From the NCBI RefSeq assembly GCF_011320225.1, contig NZ_JAAOEN010000019.1, positions 38,957-102,956 of the forward strand: 64,000 nt of DNA. The letters run 5' to 3'. Position numbers and translations under genes: made by a program. A model generated the notes under the pieces. The model was not told where the DNA came from and ran no database searches. It saw nothing but the letters and a program-made list of their open reading frames with translations. This document shows, in pieces, positions 5,237 through 16,452 of the stretch (position 1 is its first letter; each line of letters begins with the position of its first letter). The DNA comes from Phytoactinopolyspora limicola. Its GTDB lineage: Bacteria; Actinomycetota; Actinomycetes; Jiangellales; Jiangellaceae.

Positions 5237-6682
5237 TTACAGCGGGATGTTGCTGTGGGAGCCCCTGCGGGCGGGCGCTTCGGCCAGAGCCCGGGCTAGC
5301 GCGGAACGCGTCGACTTCTGCTCGACGATCTCGTCCACCACGCCGATGTCCATCGCCCGGTCGAGGCCGCCGGCTACCCGCTCGTGTTCCTCGGCGAGTT
5401 CGACCTCCACTTGCGGACGGAGTTCGGGGTCTACTTCGGCCAGCTTGCGCCGATGCAGGATCCGCACCGCCGCCACCGCGCCCATGACGGCCACCTCCGC
5501 CGTCGGCCACGCCAGGACCCGGGTGGCCCCCAGCGCCCGCGAGTTCATCGCGATGTATGCGCCGCCGTACGCCTTCCGCGTCACGAGCGTCACCCTTGGG
5601 ACGCTGGCCTCAGCGAAGGCGTGCAGTAGCTTCGCGCCGCGGCGCACGACGCCGTCCCACTCCTGGCCCACGCCGGGTAAGTAGCCCGGTACGTCGACCA
5701 CCACGACCAACGGCACGCCCAGTGAGTCGCACATTCGGACGAACCGGGCCGCCTTCTCCGCCGAGGTGGAGTCCAGGCACCCACCCAACCGCAGCGGATT
5801 GTTGGCGACGACGCCGACGGTGCGCCCGCCGAGGCGGCCAAGGGTGGTGACGATGTTGGGCGCCCATTTGGCATGCAACTCCACCGCGGTGGACTCGTCG
5901 AGGAGGTCGTCGACGATCGGGTGGACGTCGTAGGCGCGTTTGGCGGACTCCGGGAGATGTATGCCCAGGTCGACGTCGTTGACACCGGCTGTGTCGATCT
6001 CTCCTTGGCTGCCCAGCAGGGACGCCAGCATCCGGGCGCGGCCAAGGGCGTCCTGTTCGGTGGAGGTGAGGACGTGCACCACGCCGGAGCGCCGCCCGTG
6101 TGGTTCTGGTCCACCCAGCCGGAGCATATCGACGTCCTCCCCGGTGACCGAACGTACGACGTCCGGGCCGGTGACGAACACCCGTCCTTCCGGTCCGAGG
6201 ATGACGATGTCGGTCAGCGCGGGGCCGTACGCGGCGCCCCCGGCAGCCGGACCGAGCACCACCGAGATTTGCGGGATTGTGCCCGACGCCCGCGTCATGA
6301 TCGCGAAGATCTGCCCGACGGCGTGGAGAGACAACACTCCCTCCGGCAGCCTGGCGCCACCGGAATGCCACAAGCCGATGATCGGGACACCTTCGGCCAG
6401 CGCCCGTTCGTAGGCCTGCACCACTACGCGGCAGCCGTCGTCGCCCATGGCGCCGCCCATCACCGTCGCGTCGGAGCAGAATGCCACCACCGGCGTGCCG
6501 TCTACGGTGCCGGCCGCGGCTAGCATGCCACTGCGGTCGTCCGGGCTGACCAGCTCCATCGAGCCGGCGTCCAGGAGCGCCTCGAGTCGGTGACGGGGAT
6601 GGCGTGGGTCTTCGTCCCTGGACAGCCTCTCCGCCCCCGCGGCCGCTTGGGCTGGGACGGGACGGCTGTCGAGGGCTGTCAT
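5237..6682 (-). CDS. accD: Acyl-CoA carboxylase carboxyltransferase (beta) subunit
   Basis: 481 aa biotin-dependent carboxyltransferase that transfers CO2 from biotin to acetyl/propionyl-CoA to make malonyl/methylmalonyl-CoA for fatty-acid synthesis. Both crotonase-like halves are present: N-half oxyanion elements SGGARLPEGV and GPAAGGAAYGPALTD, and C-half 'VDVPGYLPGVGQEWDGVVRRGAKLL' and 'RKAYGGAYIAMNSRALGA'. Closest in layout to mycobacterial AccD6, which also ends a fab/kas operon. Its ATG overlaps the fabF stop (TGATG), implying translational coupling. The biotinylated alpha subunit is not in the window and must be encoded elsewhere. Cytosolic. Confidence 0.9.
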   Translation of the reverse strand: MTALDSRPVPAQAAAGAERLSRDEDPRHPRHRLEALLDAGSMELVSPDDRSGMLAAAGTVDGTPVVAFCSDATVMGGAMGDDGCRVVVQAYERALAEGVPIIGLWHSGGARLPEGVLSLHAVGQIFAIMTRASGTIPQISVVLGPAAGGAAYGPALTDIVILGPEGRVFVTGPDVVRSVTGEDVDMLRLGGPEPHGRRSGVVHVLTSTEQDALGRARMLASLLGSQGEIDTAGVNDVDLGIHLPESAKRAYDVHPIVDDLLDESTAVELHAKWAPNIVTTLGRLGGRTVGVVANNPLRLGGCLDSTSAEKAARFVRMCDSLGVPLVVVVDVPGYLPGVGQEWDGVVRRGAKLLHAFAEASVPRVTLVTRKAYGGAYIAMNSRALGATRVLAWPTAEVAVMGAVAAVRILHRRKLAEVDPELRPQVEVELAEEHERVAGGLDRAMDIGVVDEIVEQKSTRSALARALAEAPARRGSHSNIPL

Positions 6683-7941
6683 CAGGGTTTCCTGAAGGCG
6701 AGGACGACGTTGTGTCCCCCGAAGCCGAACGCGTTGTTCAGCGCGGCGACTGGACCGTCGCCGAGTTTGCGCGGCTCACCACGCACCACGTCGAGACCGA
6801 TCACCTCGTCGAGATGATCGACGTTGATAGTGGGCGGGATCTGACCGTGGTGGACGGTGAGAACCGTGGCCAGCGCCTCCACCGCGCCGGCCCCACCGAG
6901 CAAGTGTCCGATCATCGACTTCGGTGCGGTGACCGGGATGCCCGCTATGACCTCGCCGAAGACCTTACGCAGGGCTAACGCCTCGGCGGCGTCGCCGACC
7001 GGCGTAGAGGTGGCGTGGCAGTTGATGTGGTTGATGTCCGACGGCCGAAGTCCGCCGTCGTCCAGCGCCTTACGAGTGGCCGCCATGACACCGGCGCCGT
7101 CGGGCTCCGGCTGCGCGATGTGGTGGGCGTCGGAGGTGATGCCGGCGCCGGCGAGTTCGGCGTAGACCGTGGCACCGCGCGCCTCGGCGTGTTCGGCCGA
7201 TTCGAGGACGAACAACGCGCCGCCCTCACCCAGCACGAAACCATCGCGATCTTTGTCGAATGGCCGGCTGACGGCCGTGGGGTCGCCTTCACGCTTCGAC
7301 ATCGCCATCATGTTGGCGAACGCGGCGATCGGCAGTGGGTGGATCACGGCCTCCGTGCCGCCGGCGACGACGATGTCGGCGCGGCCCGATCGGATCATGT
7401 CCAGCCCGTACGCGATTGCCTCGGCACCCGACGAGCACGCACTAACGGGCGTGTGCACGCCGGCCCGGGCTTGCAGCGCCAGGCCGACGTTGGCGGCCGG
7501 GCTGTTCGGCATCAGCATGGGAATCGCTAGTGGAGACACCTTGCGTGGGCCGTGTGCGAGCAGTTGATCGTAGTTGCCGAGCAGGGTGTGCAGCCCACCG
7601 ATACCGGACGCGCAGACCACGCCGAACCGGTCCGGATCTACCCCGGTCTCCGACGCCTTGCCCTCGAAGCCGGCGTCGGCCCATGCCTGCCGCGCGGCGA
7701 TCAAGGCGATCTGCGCCGACCGGTCGAGCCTGCGGGCCTCGACCCGCGGCAGGACCTCGGAGGGGTCGACAGCCACCGGGGCGCCGATGCGCACCGGCGA
7801 CTGCTCGACCCACTCTTCGGTCAGGTGGCGCACGCCGCTGCGGCCGCTCAGCAGCGCGTCCCAGGTCGACGCGACATCACCACCAAGGGGCGTGCTCGCG
7901 CCGAGCCCCGTGACGACGACAGGAACCTGGGAACGTGCCAT
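6682..7941 (-). CDS. fabF: Beta-ketoacyl-ACP synthase II
   Basis: 419 aa elongating condensing enzyme (malonyl-ACP plus acyl-ACP). The catalytic triad is visible: Cys169 in VSACSSGAEAIAYG, His309 in INCHATSTPVGD and His346 in APKSMIGHLLGGAGA, with Lys341. The length is standard for FabF/KasA. It starts with ATG at 7941, 5 bp downstream of acpP, and overlaps accD by one base. Part of the fabD-fabH-acpP-fabF arrangement known from Streptomyces. Confidence 0.95.
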   Translation of the reverse strand: MARSQVPVVVTGLGASTPLGGDVASTWDALLSGRSGVRHLTEEWVEQSPVRIGAPVAVDPSEVLPRVEARRLDRSAQIALIAARQAWADAGFEGKASETGVDPDRFGVVCASGIGGLHTLLGNYDQLLAHGPRKVSPLAIPMLMPNSPAANVGLALQARAGVHTPVSACSSGAEAIAYGLDMIRSGRADIVVAGGTEAVIHPLPIAAFANMMAMSKREGDPTAVSRPFDKDRDGFVLGEGGALFVLESAEHAEARGATVYAELAGAGITSDAHHIAQPEPDGAGVMAATRKALDDGGLRPSDINHINCHATSTPVGDAAEALALRKVFGEVIAGIPVTAPKSMIGHLLGGAGAVEALATVLTVHHGQIPPTINVDHLDEVIGLDVVRGEPRKLGDGPVAALNNAFGFGGHNVVLAFRKP

Positions 7942-7946
7942 GGTGA

Positions 7947-8201
7947 TCAGGCCTCCGCGCTAGCGTTCTTGATGTACGACACGGCGTCACCGACGGTGGC
8001 GAGGTTCTTGACCTCGTCCTCGGGGATCTTCACCCCGAACTTCTCTTCGGCGCCGACCACTACCTCGATCATCGACAGCGAGTCGATGTCGAGGTCGTCG
8101 GTGAACGACTTGTCGAGTTGGACGTCCGCCGCGGGGACGCCGGTGATCTCGTTGACGATCTCGGCGAGACCCGTCAGGATCTCTTCTTCGTTGCTGGCCA
8201 T
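7947..8201 (-). CDS. acpP: Acyl carrier protein
   Basis: 84 aa acidic four-helix carrier protein. The phosphopantetheine attachment serine is Ser41 in the motif DLDIDSLSMIEVV. It carries the growing acyl chain between FabD, FabH and FabF. ATG at 8201 is preceded by GAGGAG with good spacing. Located between fabH and fabF as in Streptomyces primary-metabolism clusters. Confidence 0.96.
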   Translation of the reverse strand: MASNEEEILTGLAEIVNEITGVPAADVQLDKSFTDDLDIDSLSMIEVVVGAEEKFGVKIPEDEVKNLATVGDAVSYIKNASAEA

Positions 8202-8277: not shown

Positions 8278-9294
8278 TCAGGGTATGCGGACCACTTGGC
8301 CGGCGTAGACCAGCCCCGCCCCGAATCCGATGATGAGAGCGAGGTCACCACTCGTGGCCTCGCCGTTCTCCACCATCCGCTCCAGGGCCAGGGGGACCGA
8401 CGCCGCCGACGTGTTGCCCTGGGTGGCGATGTCGCGGGCGATGGCCACCGAGTCTGGCAGTTTCAGCTGCCGCGCCATCGCGTCGGTGATGCGCATGTTG
8501 GCCTGGTGTGGGGCGAAGACGTCGAGGTCGGCCATGGTGATGCCGGCGGCGGCAACCGCCTCCTGCGCTACCTTCGCCATCTCGTACGATGCCCAGCGGA
8601 AGACGGGGTTGCCCTCCATGACCAGGTGGGGCATTTCTGGACCGTCCGCACCGAACAGCGCTTCGCGCCAGCCTTTCTTCTGCCGGATGTGGTCAAGGGC
8701 GGATCCGTCGGACCCCCACACCACTGGGCCGATGCCGGGCGGGTCGTCCGGGCCGCCCGGGCCGACTACCACGGCACCCGCGCCGTCGGCGAAGATGAAC
8801 GCCGTCGAGCGGTCGTGCGGGTCGGTGAGGTCGGATAGCCGCTCGACGCCGATGACCAGCACGTGCCGGGACGTGCCGGCCCGGACCATATCCGAGGCCA
8901 GCGATAGTCCGTAGCAGAAGCCGGCGCACGCGGCGGAGATGTCGAACGCCGCCGCGCTGCCGGCGCCGAGTTTGTGGGCGATCTCCACTGCGGCCGACGG
9001 TGTCTGGTAGAGGTGGGTGACCGTGGCCACGACGACGCAGTCGATCTGGTCGGGCTGGATGCCGGCGTGGGCGAGTGCTTTACCGGCCGCGGCCAGGCTC
9101 ATCGATACCACTGTCTCGTCCGGGCCGGCCCAGCGGCGGGATTCGATACCCGACCGGGTCCGGATCCACTCGTCGGACGAGTCGATGTTCTTGACGATTT
9201 CGTCGTTGCCGACGACGCGGGTAGGCCGGTAGGCACCGAGGCCCAAGATTCGGCTGGTCCAGGCCGACGGGGGTAGCGCTATCTGGGCGCTCAT
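8278..9294 (-). CDS. fabH: Beta-ketoacyl-ACP synthase III
   Basis: 338 aa initiating condensing enzyme that joins an acyl-CoA starter (branched-chain in most actinomycetes) with malonyl-ACP. The Cys-His-Asn triad is Cys123 (SAACAGFCYG), His263 (FAPHQANMRI) and Asn294 (TQGNTSAAS). Overlaps the end of fabD by 4 bp (ATGA), so the two are translationally coupled. Cytosolic homodimer in the family. Confidence 0.95.
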   Translation of the reverse strand: MSAQIALPPSAWTSRILGLGAYRPTRVVGNDEIVKNIDSSDEWIRTRSGIESRRWAGPDETVVSMSLAAAGKALAHAGIQPDQIDCVVVATVTHLYQTPSAAVEIAHKLGAGSAAAFDISAACAGFCYGLSLASDMVRAGTSRHVLVIGVERLSDLTDPHDRSTAFIFADGAGAVVVGPGGPDDPPGIGPVVWGSDGSALDHIRQKKGWREALFGADGPEMPHLVMEGNPVFRWASYEMAKVAQEAVAAAGITMADLDVFAPHQANMRITDAMARQLKLPDSVAIARDIATQGNTSAASVPLALERMVENGEATSGDLALIIGFGAGLVYAGQVVRIP

Positions 9295-10475
9295 GGCGAC
9301 ACCGCCTCCGGATGCAGTCTAACGAGGGGTTGGCCGGGGGCGACCGGATCGCCGTCCTCCACCAGCCATTCCAGCACGGTTCCGCCGTGGGCGGCTCGGA
9401 TTTCCCGCGAGTCGCGTAACGACGTGACGGTACCAACGTGGTCACCAGGTGCGAGCTGCGCACCGGCCTCTAGCGTCGCGGCGTTGAAGGTACCTTTCAT
9501 GGGGGCGACGACCAGGCGCCACGTGGGGCTCGCCGTCATGGGACTGGGTGCTCCGTGCCGCTCGACGAAGCGGCGCGCCTCGTCGAGCTGGTCGGGTGTC
9601 TTCAACGCGAACGTCTCGACGCCCGGAATGGCTCGTCGAGCCAAGCCGGTGAGAGTGCCGGCGGGCGGGACCTCCAGGATGCCGGTGATTCCCAGGTCGG
9701 CCATGGTGGCCTGACAGAGATCCCACCGGACCGGGTTGGACACCTGCTCGACGATGCGATCGAGAACCTCGCGACCGCTGTGCACCACGTGCCCGTCCCG
9801 GTTGGACAGCAGCCTGGTCCGGGGATCGTGAGTGCTGATGGCGCTGGCATAGCGGCGCAGTGTGTCTACGGCCGGTGCCATGTGGTGAGTGTGGAAGGCG
9901 CCGGCCACTGACAACGGGCGCAGCCGGGCTCCCTCGGGTGGGTCGGCTTTCAGCGCGTCGAGCTGCTCAAGCGTGCCGGCGGCGACGATCTGGCCGGCGC
10001 CGTTGACGTTGGCCGGGGTCAGTCCGTGTTTGTCCAGGACCTGGAGGACGTGGTCGGAGTCGCCCCCCAGCACCGCGGTCATGCCGGTCGGGGTGGCGTT
10101 GGAGGCGGCGGCCATAGCTCGGCCGCGCTCGCGGACGAACACCATGGCCTGCTCGGCGGTGATGACGCGTGCACCGGCGGCGGCGGTGATCTCTCCGACG
10201 CTGTGTCCGGCCACAGCGGTCACCGCGTGGTAAGCGTCGGCAGGGTGTGGGAAGAGCTCGAGCGCGGCGACGAGGCCAGCGGCCACGAGTAGAGGCTGGG
10301 CGATGGCGGTGTCGCGGATGGTGTCGGCGTCGGCTTCGGTGCCGTAGTGCGCGAGGTCGAGCCCGGCGACGGCCGACAGCCACTCGATCCGGTTGGCGAA
10401 GGTGGGCTCTTCCAGCCACGGGGTGAGGAAGCCGGGGGTCTGAGAGCCCTGTCCGGGCGCGACGATGACCAACAC
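9291..10475 (-). CDS. fabD: Malonyl-CoA:ACP transacylase fused to a C-terminal biotinyl/lipoyl-like domain
   Basis: 394 aa from the GTG at 10475 (VLVIVAPGQGSQTPGFLTPW, the canonical actinobacterial FabD start). The acyltransferase domain, residues 1-305, has GQGSQ (9-13), the nucleophile Ser92 in AGHSVGE and His195 in GAFHTHHM. Ordinary FabD ends near residue 310; here a second domain (about 318-389) follows, reading 'VVAPMKGTF', 'LAPGDHVGTV', then SLRDSREIRAAHGGTVLEW and 'VEDGDPVAPGQPLVRLHP'. That is the beta-barrel pattern of biotinyl/lipoyl carrier domains, but the hairpin that normally reads (E)AMKM is SLRDSREI, with no lysine. It therefore cannot be biotinylated or lipoylated at the usual site. 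The MCAT function is certain; the role of the tail is unknown. Confidence 0.92.
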   Translation of the reverse strand: MLVIVAPGQGSQTPGFLTPWLEEPTFANRIEWLSAVAGLDLAHYGTEADADTIRDTAIAQPLLVAAGLVAALELFPHPADAYHAVTAVAGHSVGEITAAAGARVITAEQAMVFVRERGRAMAAASNATPTGMTAVLGGDSDHVLQVLDKHGLTPANVNGAGQIVAAGTLEQLDALKADPPEGARLRPLSVAGAFHTHHMAPAVDTLRRYASAISTHDPRTRLLSNRDGHVVHSGREVLDRIVEQVSNPVRWDLCQATMADLGITGILEVPPAGTLTGLARRAIPGVETFALKTPDQLDEARRFVERHGAPSPMTASPTWRLVVAPMKGTFNAATLEAGAQLAPGDHVGTVTSLRDSREIRAAHGGTVLEWLVEDGDPVAPGQPLVRLHPEAVSP

Positions 10476-10747: not shown

Positions 10748-11923
10748 TCACTCCGGATGTGGCGGGTGTAGCCGTCCCAACGTCAACGCCAACCGCAGCG
10801 TGTACGAATCGCGGGCGTCGGTGGGTGTGAGTCCTACCACGTCCGTCACCCGGCGTAGCCGGTACCGCACCGTATTCGGGTGGACGAACAAGAACCTGGC
10901 CGCCGCCTCCACGGACGCACCCGTCTCCAGATAAGCCGCCAGTGTCTCCAGGACGACCGGACCCGCCTCAGCCACCGGGAAGTACACTTCCGCGACCAAC
11001 TCGCGCACGGCGTCCTGATCTCCGGACAACGCCCGCTCGGGCAGGAGTGCCGACGCCGCCACCGGGCGAGGGGCATCCGGCCAGCCGTCCGCCGCGACAA
11101 GCCCCGAGACCGCGGCCCGCGCCGACTGCGCCGCCGAGACGAGGTCCGGTACCAGCGGCCCCACCACCACCGGCCCCGGGCCGAAGTGACTCACCAGGCT
11201 CTTCGCCGCCCGCACCGGATCCTCGACGCCACCGAGGATCGCGACCAGTCGATCGCCCTGCATGCCGGTCAGCACGTCGTATCCGGCTTTGCGGGCGCTC
11301 CGGCGGATGTCGTCCACGGTGTTGTCGCGCACCGCGGGAGGCCGGCCGATGATGACGGTCACACCGCCCTCGGCCATCCATCCCAGCGCTGACGCCCGCG
11401 AGCGGACGCCCTCGTCGGCTTCACCTCGCAAGAGCGAATCGACGACGGTCGCCTCCAGTCGCGCGTCCCACGACCCCCGTGCCTCGGCGTAGCGGGCGTA
11501 GACGTGTGCCGCCGAGAACGCCACCTCGCGTGAATACCGCAAGACACCTTCGAGCACCGCGGGCGCGTCGTCATCACCCACGACGTCGGCGACGTTGTCC
11601 TCGACCACCTCGATGGCGACCCGCACGACCTCCACCGTCTGCTGCAGGCTGATCGCGCGGATCAGATCCCGGGGAGCGGTGCCGAAGATGTCCGCGGTGG
11701 GTGTCGGACGGGCGTGGCGCGGGTTGCGATACCAATCGACGAAGGCCGCGATGCCAGCCTGGATCACCAATCCCACCCATGATCGCTGCTCCGGCGGCAT
11801 CGCTCGGTACCACGACAGCTTGTCTTCCATCTTGGCGATGGCCGCCGTGGCGAGCGGTCCCGTGGCACGCTCGAGCAGATGCACGGTGCGCTCGTGACGC
11901 TTGGTGTCGCGGCGTGGAGACAT
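10748..11923 (-). CDS. fasR: PucR/CdaR-family regulator, FasR-like activator of the fab operon
   Basis: 391 aa from ATG 11923 (MSPRRDTKRHERTVHLLERATG). Its opening 'LATAAIAKMEDKLSWYRAMPPEQRSWVGLVIQAGIAAFVDWY' matches the N-terminal domain of Streptomyces FasR, and the C-terminus has the PucR helix-turn-helix 'VEAAARFLFVHPNTVRYRLRRVTDVVGLTPTDARDS' (about 345-380). In Streptomyces FasR lies immediately upstream of fabD and activates fabDHPF; gene order and strand are the same here, with a 272-bp gap before fabD that could hold the binding site. No Shine-Dalgarno before the ATG. The name is by homology and position. Confidence 0.85.
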   Translation of the reverse strand: MSPRRDTKRHERTVHLLERATGPLATAAIAKMEDKLSWYRAMPPEQRSWVGLVIQAGIAAFVDWYRNPRHARPTPTADIFGTAPRDLIRAISLQQTVEVVRVAIEVVEDNVADVVGDDDAPAVLEGVLRYSREVAFSAAHVYARYAEARGSWDARLEATVVDSLLRGEADEGVRSRASALGWMAEGGVTVIIGRPPAVRDNTVDDIRRSARKAGYDVLTGMQGDRLVAILGGVEDPVRAAKSLVSHFGPGPVVVGPLVPDLVSAAQSARAAVSGLVAADGWPDAPRPVAASALLPERALSGDQDAVRELVAEVYFPVAEAGPVVLETLAAYLETGASVEAAARFLFVHPNTVRYRLRRVTDVVGLTPTDARDSYTLRLALTLGRLHPPHPE

Positions 11924-12109
11924 ATTCGGCAGCGTACGCGGCCACCTTCGTCGCCCGGACAACCGCGTGTTGTCGTGTTGGCACAATCGACGGGCTCCGG
12001 CGCCGTCACCCCGGCGTGGACTCCGCCGTCCTCGTGGTAGCTCAGGAGTAGCTCATGGCTGGCACAGGCACTAGGAACAACACCCCGTCCGGCGCTAGGC
12101 TGACGCCCT

Positions 12110-13698: not shown

Positions 13699-16452
<2,754 letters not shown>

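Follow-up and report, generated by a model that had tools for sequence, protein, structure and literature searches.

A biotin carrier-like tail without the biotin lysine on an actinobacterial FabD, and its association with the AccD6 carboxyltransferase

The fabD gene in a 64,000-nucleotide stretch of the Phytoactinopolyspora limicola genome (hereafter, the window) encodes a malonyl transacylase that continues into a tail resembling a biotin carrier domain; FabD is extended in this way in many actinobacteria. Its closest described counterparts are the biotinyl domains of biotin carboxyl carrier proteins (BCCPs), the solved FabD enzymes, the carboxyltransferase AccD6, and the acyl-CoA carboxylase epsilon subunit. 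The biotinyl domain of BCCP (E. coli AccB, 1bdo; PF00364) has an AMKM motif, whereas the tail has Arg354 and no such motif, is fused to FabD, and adds the near-invariant residues W319, R320, W370, and R386, which, to our knowledge, are absent from the usual biotinyl pattern. The acyltransferase (AT) domain and its Ser-His pair are common to the window protein and to the solved FabDs 1nm2 and 2qc3 (chains of 317 and 303 residues, the S. coelicolor and M. tuberculosis enzymes); however, both of these are tail-less, and the matches end at residue 300-307. The carboxyltransferase (CT) of the window is orthologous to AccD6 4fb8, which has a serine at the position of Arg188. 4fb8 is the M. tuberculosis protein, and the neighbourhood of type II fatty-acid synthesis (FAS-II) genes is similar. 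The epsilon subunit (PF13822) likewise accompanies actinobacterial carboxyltransferases as an accessory part, but the tail differs from it in family and target. Matches to epsilon were present in 120 of 128 genomes, whether or not FabD has the tail, for which reason substitution of the epsilon subunit by the tail was rejected; in a mycobacterial interaction map, the contact between epsilon and AccD6 is given as not detected (PMC4347857). A described role for such a FabD tail was not found in the literature searched. What is new is the lysine-less FabD fusion together with its link to AccD6 and the Arg188 mark; the parts themselves are of known kinds. On the strength of co-occurrence and of Arg188, we consider it marginally probable that the tail is a docking module, which holds FabD on the AccD6 carboxyltransferase encoded in the same operon.

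The FabD tail and its missing lysine

The tail was predicted, by AlphaFold2 modelling and Foldseek comparison, to adopt the biotinyl/lipoyl fold (a flattened barrel of two four-stranded sheets), with a match to E. coli BCCP 1bdo. The best structural matches of the model were biotinyl domains, and lipoyl domains fitted somewhat less well. The last 88 residues alone scored 25.1 bits against the Pfam family Biotin_lipoyl (PF00364), above its cut-off of 22.1, and the whole protein scored 21.0, just under it. The tail also matched the E. coli BCCP biotinyl domain 1a6x (E = 6.7e-5), and residues 311-394 were matched at E <= 1e-3 by 1,458 of 1,737 candidate proteins. Because of these matches, the likeness of the tail to a biotinyl domain is, at the level of sequence, greater than chance would give. 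A sequence-only reading of the window had already assigned the tail to the biotinyl barrel pattern and had named a model lacking the barrel as the outcome that would tell against it; no such outcome was seen.

In a HMMER alignment, the ...EAMKM... segment of BCCP faces ...TSLRD... in the tail, which places the biotin lysine opposite Arg354. Among 96 distinct tails, this position is occupied by Arg in 88, Gln in three, Ser in two, Gly and Thr in one each, and a gap in one; lysine occurs in none, so the survey of homologs for a retained carrier lysine, suggested by the sequence-only reading, came out in its favour. Arg was also found in 120 of the 120 nearest homologs, a list that was chosen by tail similarity. 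The modifiable lysine of a biotin carboxyl carrier, in an (A/V)MKM motif on the hairpin, is thus replaced by Arg354. The description of the whole tail as free of lysine held for the hairpin but not beyond it, as K327 lies in the first-strand turn (APMKG), where lysine is present in 72 of the 96 tails. A carrier function using this other lysine was rejected, since K327 is off the hairpin and the residue is not lysine in the remaining 24 tails. Nine other biotin/lipoyl-type domains are encoded in the genome; a swinging biotinylated carrier would have to come from another protein.

Several residues are near-invariant across the 96 tails, among them W319 (95), G328 (96), E369 (96), W370 (92), D376 (94), and R386 (94). 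The constraint on the extra residues W319, R320, W370, and R386 suggests a working surface, rather than the fold alone. Tails standing alone were also sought: 130 short proteins matched at E <= 1e-3, and the 21 that were read, most of which resembled fragments or frame-shifted FabD ends, included no convincing case of a free-standing tail family. One 118-residue protein (P0236), named biotin carboxyl carrier protein at its source, shows the tail pattern with no biotin lysine and differs at its N-terminus; it may be either a fragment or a true pseudo-carrier that stands alone.

Co-occurrence with AccD6 and the Arg188 mark

The loci of a first sample were fetched by two AT motifs rather than by the tail, so that the motif step gives tails no advantage, although retention of the best 80 out of 569, ranked by likeness to tailed proteins, may do so. 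Seventy-two of the 80 loci were callable, eight being left out at contig ends, and AccD6 was scored as adjacent. Tail and adjacent AccD6 were found together at 46 loci, the tail only at four, AccD6 only at two, and neither at 20; AccD6 adjoins 46 of 50 tail-bearing loci and 2 of 22 tail-less loci (these counts use the corrected call of L046, which is cut at its 5′ end, and the Fisher p of 4.8e-11 predates that correction). FabH, acyl carrier protein (ACP), and FabF were present at all 72 loci, with and without the tail. A second sample was drawn evenly from the class and overlaps slightly with the first; 120 of its 128 genomes were used, with the omission of three without a match, four with weak matches only, and G152, in which the match is split over two contigs. 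Here, AccD6 was scored genome-wide, at an identity of at least 55% among the matches listed, so that a short partial copy could be hidden, and a FabD of at least 355 residues was counted as tailed, which takes in the half tail of G131. Tail and AccD6 occurred together in 48 genomes, the tail only in two, AccD6 only in 38, and neither in 32, so that AccD6 is present in 48 of 50 tailed and 38 of 70 tail-less genomes (Fisher p 1.3e-7, ignoring the tree). By the counts in these two samples, the tail nearly always occurs with AccD6, and AccD6 is often tail-less; the tail is, therefore, an accessory.

At the 24 callable loci with no adjacent AccD6, AccD6 looks lost rather than moved, because no CT with more than 50% identity to the AccD6 of the window was found in the 21 cases where the genome, in some instances a metagenome draft, was searched whole. 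In three genomes of one genus (G060, G127, and G137 of g25), neither a close FabD nor an AccD6 match was found, and both are present in five of the six genomes of genus g35 from the same family (f22); the three possibly use a different fatty-acid synthase.

Joint change was followed on a tree of the AT domain. In the first sample, eight independent tail changes were accompanied by a change of AccD6 in the same direction 6.9 times on average and in the opposite direction 0 times (median p 0.0156). When the same tree was started from AccD6 changes, 10 pairs were obtained, 6.0 of them changing the same way, with an opposed pair in rare draws only (median p 0.031). Joint changes are seen, for example, in Kribbella albertanoniae, which falls within tailed Kribbella, and in Nocardioides sp. 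Root682, a neighbour of tailed Nocardioides. Pooling of both samples, which mixes adjacency from the first with genome-wide presence from the second (188 rows, with four duplicates left out), gave 10 pairs, 5.6 same and 0 opposed (median p 0.031, range 0.0156-0.125), and, from AccD6 changes, 14 pairs, 5.3 same and 0.015 opposite (median p 0.0625). The control gene AceE, in 57 rows, showed no association with the tail (7 pairs, 1.1 same, 0.2 opposite), and a partnership with AceE was rejected on the ground that its presence does not track the tail.

Comparison of AccD6 between 60 tail-bearing and 40 tail-less genomes (99 of 102 loci readable, plus the window) revealed Arg188 in 58 of the former and in one of the latter, the residue otherwise being Ser, Leu, Ala, Gly, Thr, Lys, or Gln. 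The difference of 0.94 at column 188 was the best of 1,623 columns in AccD, FabF, ACP, FabH, and the AT domain of FabD, the next best being 0.76; six of the eight top AccD columns (187, 188, 194, 196, 197, and 198) fall in 187-198. In further genomes outside the first set, most of which are kin of it (G066 and G067 are apparently repeats), Arg188 was present in 32 of 33 tail-bearing cases, the exception, G120, having a degenerate tail and an unlinked CT; the single tail-less genome has Ala. When an AccD6 tree was made with columns 180-200 left out, 4.2 of five supported pairs changed the same way and 0 were opposed (median p 0.125, where fewer than six differing pairs cannot reach 0.05). Arg188 is, apparently, the partner mark of the tailed FabD in AccD6. 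A pairing of tail His373 with this residue was considered, as the two tailed loci without Arg188 (L086 and L026) have His373, but it was dropped as post hoc, since G045, G051, and G070 combine His373 with Arg188.

When the 96 tails were ranked by their deviations at 26 conserved tail positions beyond the AT-domain prediction, four of the five AccD6-less tails took ranks 6, 7, 8, and 10 (one-sided p 0.013, with no tree correction). The selection of these positions drew on tails with AccD6, a slight bias towards this outcome. Constraint would, on our reading, be relaxed in tails without AccD6. Rank 1 is taken by G120, where the AccD6-like CT lies at a distance from the fab operon; at rank 2, a contig end inflates the value of L129 (G121). 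The FabD at L176 (G131), of 359 residues, has its central tail hairpin deleted and keeps WRLLVAP and GDPVSAGQPLARV; the AccD6 alongside has Arg188.

Proposed docking on AccD6 and competing explanations

The sequence-only reading had proposed that the tail docks to the carboxylase or to ACP. The carboxylase side is supported, as far as sequence comparison reaches, by the dependence on AccD6, the joint changes on the tree, the four of five deviating tails, and Arg188. The ACP side has no such support, as FabH, ACP, and FabF are kept at every callable locus. The observation behind that reading was confirmed, and its interpretation was borne out in part (the fold, the missing lysine, and docking to the carboxylase). 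Docking to AccD6 is likely because the tail nearly always accompanies AccD6. The tail, through its acidic EWLVEDGD stretch, would bind AccD6 at the Arg188/Gly-Arg-Arg loop of the CT N-domain, although the pairing of this stretch with the basic loop (LR…GRR) is a guess.

A number of observations, in addition to the few supported pairs of the AccD6 tree and the kinship of the further genomes, weigh against docking. AccD6 without the tail is common (38 of 86 AccD6 genomes in the second sample), five of 96 tails persist without AccD6, and one of these (L008) ranks 78 and is fully intact at the conserved positions. Degenerate tails occur in G051, G070, G131, and G168, despite an AccD6 with Arg188 on the same contig, and G131, G070, and G051 rank high for deviations with AccD6 adjacent. 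G085 keeps Arg188 without a tail, and L086 and L026 keep a tail without Arg188. The second sample alone yields too few pairs in the tree test (4 pairs, 1.7 same, 0 opposed, p 0.5; from AccD6 changes, 7 pairs, 1.5 same). Coevolution of the tail and AccD6 beyond background was nil in a distance-matrix test (35 of 45 loci with all genes; partial r 0.02, with 399 of 1,000 permutations as high), and the tail correlations with FabH (0.15) and FabF (0.10) exceed that with AccD6 (0.02). Finally, in Leishmania PCC, the carrier lysine loop touches the C-terminal CT half (C-CT) and the BT domain touches the N-terminal half (N-CT) (PMC10148081). Judged by residue order, Arg188 would lie in the N-CT half, so that the tail would not sit at the site of the true carrier.

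This placement also bears on the explanation that survives best after docking, in which the tail is a regulatory pseudo-substrate that occupies the part of AccD6 used by the true biotin carrier and slows carboxylation when unbound FabD is plentiful. Such a role would fit the carrier-like fold, the Arg in place of Lys, and the dependence of the tail on AccD6, but the N-CT position of Arg188 conflicts with a carrier loop on C-CT, there is no sign of inhibition in the data, and we regard it as unlikely. The negative distance-matrix test, the few independent events, and the degenerate tails alongside AccD6 would all be expected if the tail made no contact, so that tail and Arg188 were separate traits of one fab-operon lineage, lost jointly on remodelling, with the tail a fading carrier fossil. 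We think this rather unlikely as well, given the near-invariance of tail residues over a wide range of genomes, the four of five AccD6-less tails that deviate beyond expectation, the lack of any other column in five operon proteins that approaches Arg188, and the retention of FabH, ACP, and FabF when the tail goes. Binding to another part of the carboxylase (the AccA-type biotin carboxylase, its BT domain, or the true BCCP), with AccD6 merely defining the complex, would produce the same AccD6 dependence, and the epsilon-AccD6 contact that went undetected in the mycobacterial map (PMC4347857) suggests that AccD6 complexes may need other contacts; we consider it improbable, as the strong Arg188 mark in AccD6 is not predicted by it and epsilon is matched in tailed and untailed genomes alike. 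Docking of FabD, in the manner of a lipoyl domain, to ACP or to AceE (pyruvate dehydrogenase E1), whose gene lies upstream, is very improbable, since AceE does not follow the tail, ACP is present with and without it, and the model of the tail is somewhat closer to biotinyl than to lipoyl domains.

Docking on AccD6 leads to a wider proposal, which we hold tentatively and with somewhat more doubt than belief. A former carrier domain, having given up biotin, may have been reused as a scaffold that clamps FabD to AccD6 through the Arg188/GRR loop, forming a type II metabolon in which malonyl-CoA passes from the carboxylase to FabD and on to ACP; lineages that lose AccD6 would later lose the clamp. 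The hand-over of malonyl-CoA to FabD envisaged by the sequence-only reading would be part of this, as, with the tether, the malonyl-CoA that the carboxylase makes would quickly arrive at FabD and ACP, and the tail could sit beside the working carrier instead of replacing it. The proposal bears on malonyl-CoA channelling between the separate enzymes of type II fatty-acid synthesis. Published findings on how AccD6 complexes are completed differ: the mycobacterial map recovered AccD6 with AccA3 in just one of the two directions (PMC4347857), and a later purification gave AccA3-AccD6 with the size of a dodecamer (PMC5407890). In such complexes, a domain carried by FabD would be a component of a new kind. 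If the proposal is true, the tail is a widespread, natural, and genetically separable tether between the committed carboxylase and the first enzyme to consume its product, and an instance of a carrier domain put to new use purely for contact between proteins. For experiments, it offers two handles, the tail itself and Arg188 of AccD6.

The fabD gene and its neighbours

The genes are arranged on the minus strand in the order aceE, a PucR-type regulator, fabD, fabH, acp, fabF, and accD (Table 1). As the sequence-only reading had held, the operon encodes an AccD carboxyltransferase. Its product is called an AccD6 ortholog because the closest solved chain is AccD6 4fb8, the first non-AccD6 chain, PccB, matching at E = 2.7e-120; it also lies in a FAS-II operon. 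The PucR-family regulator may, by its position, be of the MabR/FasR type.

Table 1. Coordinates of fabD, its parts, and neighbouring genes in the window
Feature	Position	Strand	Remarks
fabD with C-terminal pseudo-biotinyl tail	9291..10475	-	394 residues; open reading frame and translation; Pfam Acyl_transf_1 E = 6.9e-20
malonyl transacylase (AT) domain, residues 1-300	9576..10475	-	Ser92 codon 10200-10202; His195 codon 9891-9893
variable linker, residues 308-316	9528..9554	-	residues differ among relatives
lysine-less biotinyl-like (pseudo-BCCP) tail, residues 317-394 (78 residues)	9294..9527	-	
Arg354 codon CGC, at the position of the biotinylated lysine	9414..9416	-	codon read; HMMER alignment to BCCP
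fabH	8278..9294	-	start codon overlaps fabD stop (ATGA)
acyl carrier protein gene	7947..8201	-	PP-binding E = 6.7e-14; start codon inferred
fabF	6682..7941	-	stop overlaps accD6 start (CTGATGA)
accD6-type carboxyltransferase, 481 residues	5237..6682	-	4fb8 E = 1.7e-193; Carboxyl_trans E = 7e-115
AccD6 loop VDMLRLGGPEPHGRR, residues 184-198	6089..6133	-	contains Arg188, codon 6119-6121; codon read
PucR-family regulator upstream of fabD	10748..11986	-	HTH_30 E = 3e-19; GGDEF_2 E = 4.9e-16; start uncertain
aceE	13699..16452	-	

The fabD reading frame starts with GTG at 10475, preceded directly by GGTGGAAGG, and ends with a TGA stop at 9291-9293. The product has the AT fold (PF00698) with the GHSxG serine and the catalytic His, and the completeness claimed by the sequence-only reading was verified: Ser92 and His195, whose codons were read directly, are invariant in an alignment of 62 sequences. 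The solved malonyltransferase 1nm2 matches residues 1-307 (E = 9e-108), and 2qc3 matches at E = 1.1e-81. The tail is found in no solved FabD, in that 18 distinct PDB sequences (E <= 1e-20) match no further than residue 307 of the query. The confidence of the full-length model falls to 59 for the block 311-320, and the linker between the AT domain and the tail is predicted to be flexible.

With the NCBIfam model TIGR00128, the protein scores 161.3 bits (E = 3.4e-47), below the equivalog cut-off of 260.9; it is nevertheless called FabD because of the fab operon and the best solved matches. It scores higher with the malonate decarboxylase epsilon model mdcH (182.6 bits), again below the cut-off of that model, and automatic annotation may misname FabDs that score in this way. 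Relatives are named in databases as acyltransferase domain-containing protein, [acyl-carrier-protein] S-malonyltransferase, or, in the case of fragments, biotin/lipoyl-binding protein. Tailed FabDs are further set apart from untailed ones by the AT residues V36, L72, F75, and P76 (differences of 0.68-0.76), a possible contact patch between the AT domain and the tail.
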